Source: an uncultured Bacteroidota bacterium (GTDB lineage Bacteria > Bacteroidota > Bacteroidia > UKL13-3). From it: a stretch of 64,000 bases of DNA. Under the pieces are notes generated by a model. The model had not been told where the DNA came from. It made no database searches and was given only the letters and a program-made list of their open reading frames with translations. The position numbers and the translations under genes were made by a program. Below, in pieces: positions 21,356 through 25,089 of the stretch. The stretch is from NCBI GenBank assembly GCA_903910445.1, contig CAIVZR010000006.1, positions 66,127 to 130,126 on the forward strand, in the 5' to 3' direction. Position 1 is the stretch's first letter. Each line of letters opens with the position of its first letter.

Positions 21356-22600
21356 TTACTCAACAAAATACATATCAATATCCCCTTTGTTTTTGGCGGC
21401 TACCTTGCCACGGTATGAGCATTTGATATCGTCTTTCACCAATTCGTAGGTAGTGTTAGATATATTAATTCTATTGGTATCGCCACTTTCTTGCATACGT
21501 GCTGCAGTATTTACCGTATCTCCCCAAATATCGTATGCGAACTTTTTAATCCCTACAACCCCTGCCACCAATGGACCGGTATGAATTCCAATTCGAATAT
21601 CAAAGGCTACATTGGTATTTCCTTCACTTGCTGTTTTTAATTTGTTTACTTCATTTAAAATCTCTTGCGATAATTGCACCGCACGAATGGCGTTGTCCTT
21701 AGTTTCCAATGGAATACCCACTGCACAGATATAGGCATCACCCACCGTTTTTATTTTTTCTGCACCAAATTGCCCTACCAAATTATCAAAGATTTCATAG
21801 TACATATCAATAGTAGAAACTAATTCTTGAGGACTCAATTTCTCACTTACCTTCGTAAAATCTTTAAAATCGGCGAATATCACCGAAACCATTTCGTAAT
21901 GACGCGCACGAGTTTTACCTGTGCTCTTCAATTCCTCCATCACCTCGGCAGGAAGAATATTAAGCAACAATTCATCACTGCGTTGCTTCTCTTTATCCAG
22001 TTGTTTATTTTTTTCATCCAAATTCTGTAATGCTGTATTTTTAGTATTTTCAAATACCAAGGCAATTAAAAAAATGAGGACTCCCAATCCGTTGAGGTTA
22101 GAGGTATTGAAAATAATTAGAATTGATTGATTGGTTTCGTCCGCAAATTGAAATCCATTCAATGTAAGTGCTCCAATAAATGAAATGGTGAGATAGGTGA
22201 CGATAGTCCAAATCCATCCACTTCGTTTATTAATGAGCATGAGTGATGCGATGGGTAAAACAGCGAGCCAAGGCAAACTCGTAGAAATAAGACCACCAGT
22301 ATAAAAAACAGTAACCACCACCCCAATCGTTCCGATGAGGATATACCCATTGGTAAGCACCTTTAAGGGTAGTAAATCGTGTTTTAATAAAAAGGGTAAA
22401 AGTAGAAACCCTATTACATTAAATGCCATGGCCCAAAGCACGTGTGGCATCCCCGCCATGTAAGAAGTGAGGAAATAAAAAGATGAAAATAAACTTGTAA
22501 TAAAACAAGTTGTAACAAAAAGTCTGACTTTCCGAAATACCTCTTCATCATTTCGGTATTTATCAGGAATAAAGTTCAGTATAAATTCTTTGATATTCAT
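21356..22600 (-). CDS. Membrane adenylate cyclase (class III)
   Basis: The start is placed at the ATG at 22600 (MNIKEFILNFIPDKYRND), 2 nt after the stop of the FAD gene; the longer frame from 22702 would overlap that gene by 100 nt. The 414-residue protein has about six membrane helices (residues ~25-185), a signalling coil ending LLLNILPAEVM, and a class III cyclase domain (~245-414). Metal-binding Asp are in FADFKDF and TVGDAY. The adenine-selecting Lys (EKIKTVGD) and Asp (YDIWGDTVNTAARM) are present, so the product should be cAMP. Confidence 0.88.
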   Translation of the reverse strand: MNIKEFILNFIPDKYRNDEEVFRKVRLFVTTCFITSLFSSFYFLTSYMAGMPHVLWAMAFNVIGFLLLPFLLKHDLLPLKVLTNGYILIGTIGVVVTVFYTGGLISTSLPWLAVLPIASLMLINKRSGWIWTIVTYLTISFIGALTLNGFQFADETNQSILIIFNTSNLNGLGVLIFLIALVFENTKNTALQNLDEKNKQLDKEKQRSDELLLNILPAEVMEELKSTGKTRARHYEMVSVIFADFKDFTKVSEKLSPQELVSTIDMYYEIFDNLVGQFGAEKIKTVGDAYICAVGIPLETKDNAIRAVQLSQEILNEVNKLKTASEGNTNVAFDIRIGIHTGPLVAGVVGIKKFAYDIWGDTVNTAARMQESGDTNRINISNTTYELVKDDIKCSYRGKVAAKNKGDIDMYFVE

Positions 22601-22602
22601 AT

Positions 22603-25089
22603 TTAACCAATAAAATAAAATGCTATGATACATGCAAGCCACATCACCAATCCCTGAATAATACCTAGTATTGGAACCCATTTTAATGCAATGGTTTCGC
22701 AACGATCAAAGAGGTCGGGGATGGTTAACATCAAAAGCCCTTCTGTAATAAAGATATATATTGGAACTACACCCCACATTGGTGCATTTTCATAATGCCA
22801 CCATTCAGCATGAATGGCAAGGTATTCATATAGTGGGATAATCATACATCCTAATAAGCCTACAATTAGAGAGGTGATTAACAAATTATACTTCTTGTTG
22901 ATTAAGAATCCAATATATCCAATTTGTGTTAGTACAACAATCCAACTAAACGGCATATAGGCTGGAGATGCATAGAGCATGGGCTCATTGGGAGGATAAA
23001 ATAAAGTATGAGTTACATTCACCAACCAATTGTCGGGTAACAATTCGGTGAAACCTGCAGCTGCCGAGAACAATAGAAACCGCAGCAATATTTTATCATT
23101 AAATAAAATAGCATACAATAAATAAAGACCCGAGAAACCATAGCCCCACCATGCTGCACCTTCCCATCCATGATATTTCCAAGCAGCCAATACCAAGCAA
23201 CCTATTGCAATGGGCATGCTCCCTAAAATAAACCAGGCTCTGCGTTTATCGGCATTGAGATCGGCATTATCGGGAAATATTTTTTTAATGATAAGCTTCA
23301 CAAATCCTTCTACCAGGCAGAAGGCACTCCAAAATACCATCGTAATTTTTAACCATAATGGAATATGCATCGTCCATGGTAATCCTTTCTTCCAGCGCGA
23401 TTGATCATACAGCTTCATCGGAGCTAAAAACAACGGTTCCTCTAAATTCCAAATAGTACAATCCTCCACATTGCTTTGGTCGGCATCGAGTAAGCAGTTT
23501 ACTGCTCTTCGGGCTGCTTCATTGGCGCCTTCCATCGTGGCCAAGTCGGTGAAGGTTCTTACATAATCGGCAGCGAAAAATAAGTTATCAATATCGCAAT
23601 TCGCATCAGGGCGCAAATTCCATGTATTGACATTATTCACCAATAAGGGTTCAATATTTTGAAGTTTATTATTCGGGTCGTTCTTCACCGAAAGTAAATC
23701 AAAAATTCGTTTACCACTAGGGTTCCCATCTTCATAAGCCTCAATCGTTGTCTTTGGAGAAATATCTCGATCAAGATACCAATCCACCAACATATCATCT
23801 CTTAAAATCACTTGTCCATCAACATTGATACTATTACATAATTGTGCCCATACCTCATCCTTTATTTGCTTGGCATCGCAATCGTCCGCGTGCATGGTGG
23901 TAGTGAATTTACCAGGAGCAAACCAATCGCTAATATCTACACTGAGCAAGCCTTTTACATTGCCATTGCCTTTGGTAGTGATATCAAAATCGTCCCAAAA
24001 TTGAATTTGAGATATACAGGTTACAGCCCATTCACTATCACAACAAATGATATGGCCATTATTCAAGACCACTTCTTCATTCAAATAAAATTGAATTCCA
24101 TTCATCCAACTAACACTTGGGGCCAAATCGCGAATATATTGCAGGGTGGCATCGGCTTTCACCATCTCATCCGAAATAAGTGATGCTGCGCGTTCCACTG
24201 GAGTAGCCAAAATAAAATAATCGCCAGTCACTTCGAAAGTCGATTTGTCTTCACGCATCACTGTAGCTGACGTAACTTGTTCGGTTTTATTGATATTGAT
24301 TGCAACCACTTCATTTCCTAAATGATATTGTACCCCCTTGGTTTGAAGGAATGAAAGCCATGGATTTAACCATCTATCGTTGGTAGGACCATCCAATACC
24401 CTATCGGTATTAATTGCTGGATTAGTCATACAAAATAAGAGCTGTAAAAAAATATCCCCTCCTGTTTTGGTACTTGCCGTTTCTGCACGAGCTGCTACCA
24501 GGGTACGTGTAAGTCCTTCAACCAATAGGCTTCGATAAGTATCACTAAATCGGTCGGCTTCCAAATATTGCCACCATCCCAATCGCTCATAATCATTATT
24601 ACGGCGTAACGTGCAACTCGTCATCAATTGCCATGTGCGCTCAGCAAAAAACTTTTCTTCCTCTTTCGTAAGTCCCGTATTGGTTCCAAAAATATCTTTC
24701 ATCAATACTTCCAGGTCGGCCAAACTTTTAGGAAAAGATGCATTGGCAACGATGGGAGCCATCCCATATCTCGCAATCATTATTCGAGAAGTAGGTGTTA
24801 AATTGTCGTATACCGTAGATTGTTTTCCATTATTATTAAATGGAATACGTTTCATGGTATCGATGATATGTTTGTAAAATCCAGGAAAAAAACGGAATCC
24901 ATGTTCACCTGGAAGTGGGGTTGGGTAAGGCTTATTGGGGTCGCCAAAATAATCAATACTTCGAGCTTTACCACCTACATAGGTGGTGTTTCTATCGTAA
25001 ACTTCAACGGCGTAACCGCGCTCAATGAGCTCGTGGGCAGCACTCATACCGGCTACACCACCACCAAGGATGACAACTTTTTTTTGCAT
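22603..25089 (-). CDS. FAD-dependent amine-oxidase/desaturase-like protein fused to a polytopic membrane domain
   Basis: The 828-residue protein starts with the FAD dinucleotide fold VVILGGGVAGMSAAHELIERGY. The flavin-enzyme pattern of hydroxysqualene dehydroxylases and carotenoid desaturases follows (VGGKARS, GEHGFRFFPGFY, and a final FFAADYVRTFTDLATMEGANEAARRAV). The flavin part covers about residues 1-560. The remaining ~260 residues contain about eight membrane helices, with conserved-looking acidic and aromatic loops (AGFTELLPDNW, HAEWWHYENAPMWG, FITEGLLM). I do not recognise this membrane domain; it may be an isoprenoid-handling or cyclase-like module. The substrate is unknown, most likely a lipid or terpenoid. 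It heads a close run with the cyclase and GH53 genes. Confidence 0.72.
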   Translation of the reverse strand: MQKKVVILGGGVAGMSAAHELIERGYAVEVYDRNTTYVGGKARSIDYFGDPNKPYPTPLPGEHGFRFFPGFYKHIIDTMKRIPFNNNGKQSTVYDNLTPTSRIMIARYGMAPIVANASFPKSLADLEVLMKDIFGTNTGLTKEEEKFFAERTWQLMTSCTLRRNNDYERLGWWQYLEADRFSDTYRSLLVEGLTRTLVAARAETASTKTGGDIFLQLLFCMTNPAINTDRVLDGPTNDRWLNPWLSFLQTKGVQYHLGNEVVAININKTEQVTSATVMREDKSTFEVTGDYFILATPVERAASLISDEMVKADATLQYIRDLAPSVSWMNGIQFYLNEEVVLNNGHIICCDSEWAVTCISQIQFWDDFDITTKGNGNVKGLLSVDISDWFAPGKFTTTMHADDCDAKQIKDEVWAQLCNSINVDGQVILRDDMLVDWYLDRDISPKTTIEAYEDGNPSGKRIFDLLSVKNDPNNKLQNIEPLLVNNVNTWNLRPDANCDIDNLFFAADYVRTFTDLATMEGANEAARRAVNCLLDADQSNVEDCTIWNLEEPLFLAPMKLYDQSRWKKGLPWTMHIPLWLKITMVFWSAFCLVEGFVKLIIKKIFPDNADLNADKRRAWFILGSMPIAIGCLVLAAWKYHGWEGAAWWGYGFSGLYLLYAILFNDKILLRFLLFSAAAGFTELLPDNWLVNVTHTLFYPPNEPMLYASPAYMPFSWIVVLTQIGYIGFLINKKYNLLITSLIVGLLGCMIIPLYEYLAIHAEWWHYENAPMWGVVPIYIFITEGLLMLTIPDLFDRCETIALKWVPILGIIQGLVMWLACIIAFYFIG

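Follow-up and report, generated by a model that had tools for sequence, protein, structure and literature searches.

The window analyzed here, a stretch of 64,000 nucleotides from an uncultured Bacteroidota bacterium, contains a gene that joins a phytoene desaturase-like flavoprotein to a membrane domain with conserved acidic residues, directly followed by the gene of a membrane-bound adenylate cyclase. We propose that these two genes may form a make-and-sense lipid signalling module, in which the product of a bifunctional membrane enzyme would be sensed by the adjoining cyclase, with cAMP as the output, and we put the probability of this reading at about 45%. The proposal builds on the architecture, on the occurrence of split, fused and replaced versions, on the tight spacing of the genes, on their recurrent adjacency and on the co-variation of their parts, all of which we observed. 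An earlier note on this DNA had singled out the fused gene; we think that it missed the most important point, namely the adjoining membrane cyclase and the way in which it co-varies with the membrane enzyme.

The fused gene and its flavoprotein half

The open reading frame at 22603-25089, on the minus strand, begins with an ATG start codon and encodes 828 residues without an internal stop. We observed the same protein with 98% identity in another species of this genus and with 67% identity in another genus of the family, and the FAD part was 62-64% identical in another family of the class. Since the homologous protein is kept across genus, family and class, the reported reading frame is a genuine gene. 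Promoter and terminator scans gave results at about chance level. The full-length AlphaFold model of the protein had a mean pLDDT of 42 and was left out of the interpretation. The domains of the fused gene and of the downstream cyclase gene are as follows.

23374..25089, minus strand: FAD oxidoreductase domain, residues 1 to about 572 (Pfam NAD_binding_8 and Amino_oxidase; profile match to 5mog; both FAD motifs)
23275..23367, minus strand: hydrophobic tail helix, residues 575-605 (hydropathy; helix in the structure model)
22606..23274, minus strand: DUF6989 membrane domain, residues 606-828, with the Pfam match at 683-827 (PF22497; seven-member alignment)
22016..22600, minus strand: six-helix membrane (putative sensor) domain of the cyclase (six hydropathy segments and junction sequence; weak MASE6 match)
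21356..21907, minus strand: class III nucleotide cyclase catalytic domain, including the stop codon (PF00211, E 7e-50; motif positions)

The N-terminal half belongs to the FAD-dependent amine-oxidase/PDS superfamily, as indicated by its GxGxxG fold, its C-terminal FAD motif and its match to phytoene desaturase. Both dinucleotide motifs are present, GGGVAGMSAAHEL at residues 9-21 and ATMEGANEAARRAVN at residues 517-531. Using a profile of eleven members of the FAD family, we obtained the phytoene desaturase 5mog as the best PDB match (E 2e-14). The best NCBIfam models were HpnE, zeta-carotene desaturase and phytoene desaturase, all far under their cut-offs. The earlier assignment to the hydroxysqualene dehydroxylase/phytoene desaturase kind is correct as to the PDS/HpnE-type fold; the identity as hydroxysqualene dehydroxylase HpnE (TIGR03467) was rejected, with 67.3 bits against a curated cut-off of 283. 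The window protein has in common with the PDS, ZDS and HpnE-type desaturases the fold family, both FAD motifs and the character of a lipid-acting flavoprotein, but it belongs to its own subfamily, with the GEHGFRFFPGFY motif, and adds a C-terminal membrane domain.

This FAD family, which has motifs of its own (EHGFRFFP among others), extends to plasmid-borne homologues in Ruegeria, Streptomyces, Nocardia and haloarchaea, about 37-46% identical, and those of Ruegeria and Streptomyces adjoin a polyprenyl synthetase gene. Because of these polyprenyl synthetase neighbours, and because the FAD part is nearest to phytoene desaturase and to the HpnE and zeta-carotene desaturase models, the substrate of the FAD enzyme is likely an isoprenoid. 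On two Ruegeria plasmids (L042:8001-10124 and L031), the FAD homologue has an extra C-terminal tail of about 100 residues or more, and its gene is flanked by a DUF3237 gene and a polyprenyl synthetase gene and adjoins a family 1 encapsulin shell gene. Possibly this tail acts as a cargo peptide of the encapsulin shell; a literature search on the encapsulin/polyprenyl pairing returned nothing relevant.

The membrane half belongs to the DUF6989 family

The C-terminal half is polytopic, with seven hydropathy segments and, in the structure model, nine helices including the tail helix, which makes the earlier count of about eight a fair one. The domain had been described as unrecognised; residues 683-827 match Pfam DUF6989 (PF22497) with E 7e-39 and 133.3 bits against a curated cut-off of 27. 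The Pfam entry assigns no function to the family, and our search of the open-licence literature found no paper naming it. In an alignment of seven members, from Bacteroidota and one haloarchaeon, residues D665, E682, D686, E755, E783, W716, W764 and Y766 are invariant, and SPxYMPFxW (residues 708-716) is also among the most strictly kept. Two loops had been noted as conserved-looking, and they are so in part: the invariant positions are E682 and D686 in FTELLPDNW and, in WWHYENAPMWG, W764 and Y766. The region did not prove to be a known anchor or transporter devoid of conserved polar residues, the outcome that the earlier note had named as refuting its reading.

Weak DUF6989 matches in other Bacteroidota were mostly CruF-type carotenoid proteins (PF04240) encoded beside glycosyltransferase genes, with a carotene-hydroxylase- or ketolase-like gene as a neighbour in three of four cases. 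When four CruF-type hydratases (PF04240), picked via these weak matches, were submitted to a Pfam scan, three matched DUF6989 with E 3e-4 to 9e-4. Comparison of the DUF6989 and CruF profiles gave E 2e-4 over 64 columns, with a probability of 47%. This weak profile similarity to the CruF carotenoid 1',2'-hydratase runs from SPxYMPFxW to the WWxY region, and a conserved Glu in the helix preceding the WW motif is common to both families. The window domain itself had no Pfam match to PF04240 (CruF/Caroten_synth) up to E 1. Overall, these profiles weakly suggest a remote relation of DUF6989 to CruF. From the conserved acids and this CruF link, we infer that DUF6989 may be an enzyme protonating or hydrating a C=C bond.

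Other comparisons were negative: DUF6989 showed no relation to the CrtYcd-like protein of the same genome, and a profile search of PDB sequences returned nothing. The structure model of the domain had a pLDDT of 72.6, and Foldseek against the PDB gave no E below 0.001. With a second structural aligner, the top four matches were all Insig chains, with MvINS at Z 9.2 over 136 residues and Insig-2 at Z 6.2 and 5.5 (Z 9.2, 9.2, 6.2 and 5.5 for the four chains; 5.4 for the next, unrelated one). For helical bundles, Z below about 13 can reflect a mere common arrangement, and the Insig value of 9.2 falls in that range; we regard the likeness of the model to Insig as suggestive only. Insig, the best structural match, is a regulator; neither it nor MvINS matches DUF6989 in sequence.

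Two further genes lie outside the arrangement described here. A stand-alone DUF6989 gene on a Halorarius halobius plasmid (L037:7773-8459) adjoins metal P-type ATPase genes, with no FAD enzyme nearby. In addition, a 207-residue membrane protein (L029:1207-1830, genome G085) matches DUF6989 below the threshold and PF04240 not at all, and is possibly another branch of the DUF6989 superfamily.

The downstream gene encodes a membrane-bound adenylate cyclase

A gene of 414 codons begins 2 bases past the stop codon of the fused gene and encodes a class III cyclase domain preceded by six membrane helices. Besides its match to PF00211, the protein carries K in EKIKT, D in YDIWG, and N and R in DTVNTAAR, with motifs located at 281 and 356; among class III cyclases, these residues mark the adenylate type. 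The membrane domain, hereafter the sensor, scored 20.1 bits with MASE6, below the cut-off of 27.4, which a relative in another genome of the class (G504) passes with 28.6.

Like the Rv1625c-type six-helix class III adenylate cyclases and CqsS, the window protein has six membrane helices and then an output domain. A receptor function was shown for the membrane domains of the Rv1625c type and of CqsS (PMC4821796, PMC12505454). C18 mono-unsaturated fatty acids inhibit Rv1625c via its membrane domain (PMC12505454), and when CqsS, the receptor of the quorum signal CAI-1, takes the place of this domain, the cyclase is under ligand control (PMC4821796). Because of this lipid response and of the CqsS swap, six-helix membrane domains of cyclases are plausible receptors. 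In contrast to these known systems, the window cyclase gene directly follows the gene of a lipid-modifying-type enzyme.

As had been reported earlier, no terpenoid genes lie nearby in the part of the window inspected. The same genome has, on another contig, a carotenoid operon composed of crtI, crtB, idi, crtZ and a CrtYcd-like gene (L063, contig C56, 7042-11132); the window gene lies away from it, a further difference from CruF. Contig C39 of this genome encodes a second membrane cyclase (L092:1480-2724), whose sensor is 20% and whose catalytic domain is 63% identical to those of the window cyclase, with no lipid enzyme adjoining.

Split, fused and replaced versions

We surveyed 320 genomes of the class, among which G000 is the genome of the window and G566 that of locus L003. 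Looking for genomes in which the two halves are separate genes, as the earlier note had suggested, we found adjacent FAD and DUF6989 genes in L003, L004 and G710. The two are fused in the genus of the window, in G019 and in G644. In three other genomes (G006, G489 and G619), a Pyr4-type terpene cyclase occupies the DUF6989 slot after the FAD gene. In L003 and G006, where the FAD protein stands alone, it likewise ends in a hydrophobic tail comparable to that of the fused protein. A membrane nucleotide cyclase gene of the same kind as in the window comes next in L003, L004, G019 and G644, and in G006 it lies behind the Pyr4 gene.

The Pyr4 protein of G006, a genome of the same genus as G019, matches PF25129 with E 9e-13, and six aligned Pyr4 proteins have invariant acids in common, E65 and D209 (G006 numbering) among them. 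The role described for Pyr4-type cyclases is biosynthetic, with an acidic residue starting the cyclisation (PMC13307353). DUF6989 and the Pyr4-like transmembrane terpene cyclases (PF25129) share the operon slot and, putatively on the DUF6989 side, the character of small, polytopic, acid-dependent lipid enzymes, but they have no detectable sequence relation (no Pfam match of the window domain; hhalign E 0.19). The presence of two sequence-unrelated membrane enzyme families in one slot behind the FAD enzyme provides the strongest support for a catalytic role of DUF6989. Taken together, the split versions and the Pyr4 replacement bear out the architecture first described, in which a FAD lipid oxidoreductase and a membrane domain with conserved acids are carried on one chain. 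We did not find DUF6989 elsewhere in the genomes of G504 (72% complete), G717 and G489, and in G006 we found a sub-threshold match only.

Co-variation of the membrane enzyme and the sensor

Comparison of G006 with G019 showed protein identities of 85-88% for the FAD enzyme and 88% for the cyclase catalytic domain, whereas the membrane enzyme is replaced and the sensor is merely 29-31% identical. At the DNA level, the FAD domains of the two operons are about 82-95% identical; the identity drops sharply from the FAD tail helix onward, over the membrane enzyme and the six helices of the cyclase, and recovers at the catalytic domain. Judging from these alignments, this genus has exchanged the membrane enzyme along with the membrane domain of the cyclase. 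The four DUF6989-linked sensors are 56-65% alike, and the G006 sensor is 20-32% identical to them, depending on the alignment. In G644, DUF6989 has diverged (35-37%) and the sensor is equally diverged (23-29%); the identities of its FAD enzyme (52-64%) and catalytic domain (46-52%) are not unusual.

Across the six DUF6989 operons, identities of DUF6989 and sensor correlated with r 0.97 (3 of 720 label permutations gave as high a value), a result that rests mainly on the two diverged operons, G644 and G710. For FAD enzyme and sensor in the same operons, r was 0.44 (reached by 91 of 720 permutations). The adjacency of DUF6989 and sensor in most operons is a confounder of this correlation, since one recombination could move both neighbours without a functional link. 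The G710 operon, the only one with a gene between the two, fits the correlation. The enzyme type does not fully predict how similar the sensors are: the sensor of G504, in whose 72% complete genome DUF6989 was not found, is 37-40% identical to the DUF6989-type sensors, compared to 31-35% for the G710 sensor. Moreover, sensors beside Pyr4 genes are unlike one another (11-22%), and similar sensors also occur alone: of 12 class genomes with a relative of the G006 sensor, 7 lack a FAD gene in the flanks covered.

Genomic neighbours in the class and alternative readings

The FAD gene was present in 10 of the 320 genomes, distributed over 8 families, and DUF6989 or Pyr4 accompanied it in eight of these. 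A membrane signalling protein adjoins the FAD gene, or the FAD and membrane-enzyme genes, in nine of the ten: a membrane cyclase in five (G000, G006, G019, G566 and G644), a membrane-SpoIIE phosphatase in two (G489 and G504) and a membrane histidine kinase in two (G710 and G717). In G619, which has FAD and Pyr4 genes, no sensor adjoins. The module is self-contained, since its flanking genes vary between genera.

Pyr4 genes also occur without a FAD gene, in part with signalling neighbours, such as a membrane cyclase in G118 and a histidine kinase in G329 and G337; most, above all those of family f39, have none. Several single loci were also recorded. In G717 (L123:3788-8104), the FAD enzyme lies between a response regulator-adenylate cyclase fusion and the membrane histidine kinase, a possible two-component route to cAMP. 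Also without a FAD gene, the Pyr4 gene of G443 (L082) adjoins an MpaB/Lcp-type oxygenase and a membrane SpoIIE phosphatase, and those of G155 and G070 (L084 and L077) adjoin an MpaB/Lcp-type oxygenase and a Ser/Thr kinase-AAA protein.

An ordinary tailoring of lipids or carotenoids would account for part of this context. The FAD desaturase and a DUF6989 hydratase or cyclase would then modify a membrane isoprenoid for a structural or protective role, the adenylate cyclase being incidental or a regulator of the operon. Carotenoid production is indicated by the gene content of the genome, outside Bacteroidota the FAD homologues have polyprenyl synthetases, not membrane sensors, as neighbours, and the Pyr4 genes in family f39 and beside UbiA resemble plain biosynthesis loci. 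However, the signalling neighbour at nine of ten FAD genes with three types of output, the joint exchange of membrane enzyme and sensor in G006, and the variable flanks of a self-contained module argue against this explanation, which we consider unlikely.

Less probable again is that the sensor detects an external or stress lipid, its output controlling the enzymes that modify or destroy that lipid. The same genomic evidence would fit, since an enzyme and a receptor sharing a ligand would co-vary, and the MpaB/Lcp-type oxygenases, from a family that includes a rubber-cleaving enzyme, adjoin Pyr4 and signalling genes. In contrast, Pyr4-type cyclases are known for biosynthesis (PMC13307353) and the polyprenyl synthetase neighbours of the FAD family indicate synthesis, making a degradative module improbable. 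The least credible reading is that DUF6989 is a non-enzymatic, Insig-like lipid-binding regulator of the attached FAD enzyme: its four best structural matches are all Insig proteins, but their Z values may reflect a common helical arrangement, Foldseek gave no E below 0.001, and both the Pyr4-type replacement and the CruF relation indicate catalysis.

Proposed mechanism and significance

In the make-and-sense module that we favor, the PDS-like flavoprotein half would oxidise an isoprenoid lipid, by desaturation or oxidative activation, and the DUF6989 bundle would then perform acid-catalysed C=C chemistry (hydration, isomerisation or cyclisation), in the manner of CruF- or Pyr4-type enzymes. 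The six-helix domain of the downstream adenylate cyclase would bind the resulting product as its ligand, and the two genes would together make and sense a signal with cAMP as the output. In sister modules, a Pyr4-type terpene cyclase would serve as the second enzyme, and the output would be a SpoIIE phosphatase or a histidine kinase. We infer the co-transcription of the two genes, the isoprenoid substrate, the order of the reactions, the product and its perception by the sensor.

More tentatively, Bacteroidota may possess exchangeable signal modules based on terpenoids or isoprenoid lipids, in which the FAD enzyme would work with either of two unrelated membrane enzymes of cyclase or hydratase type to make a lipid signal, the cognate receptor being swapped along with the enzyme between conserved flanks and the output (cAMP, phosphatase or histidine kinase) varying. 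Each piece belongs to a known family; their combination and modular exchange appear undescribed, and our search of the open-licence literature found no relevant paper on terpene cyclases paired with bacterial receptors.

To our knowledge, most membrane domains of adenylate cyclases in bacteria are orphan receptors, with few known ligands, namely C18 mono-unsaturated fatty acids and, in a chimera, CAI-1. If the proposal is true, the ligand of such a cyclase receptor would be the product of the neighbouring gene, which would provide a direct handle on orphan receptors. A function would also be assigned to DUF6989, and bacterial Pyr4-type terpene cyclases would gain a role outside antibiotics. 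Isoprenoid lipids would join the signal molecules of bacteria and, if sensing is confirmed, would constitute a new kind of bacterial lipid signal.
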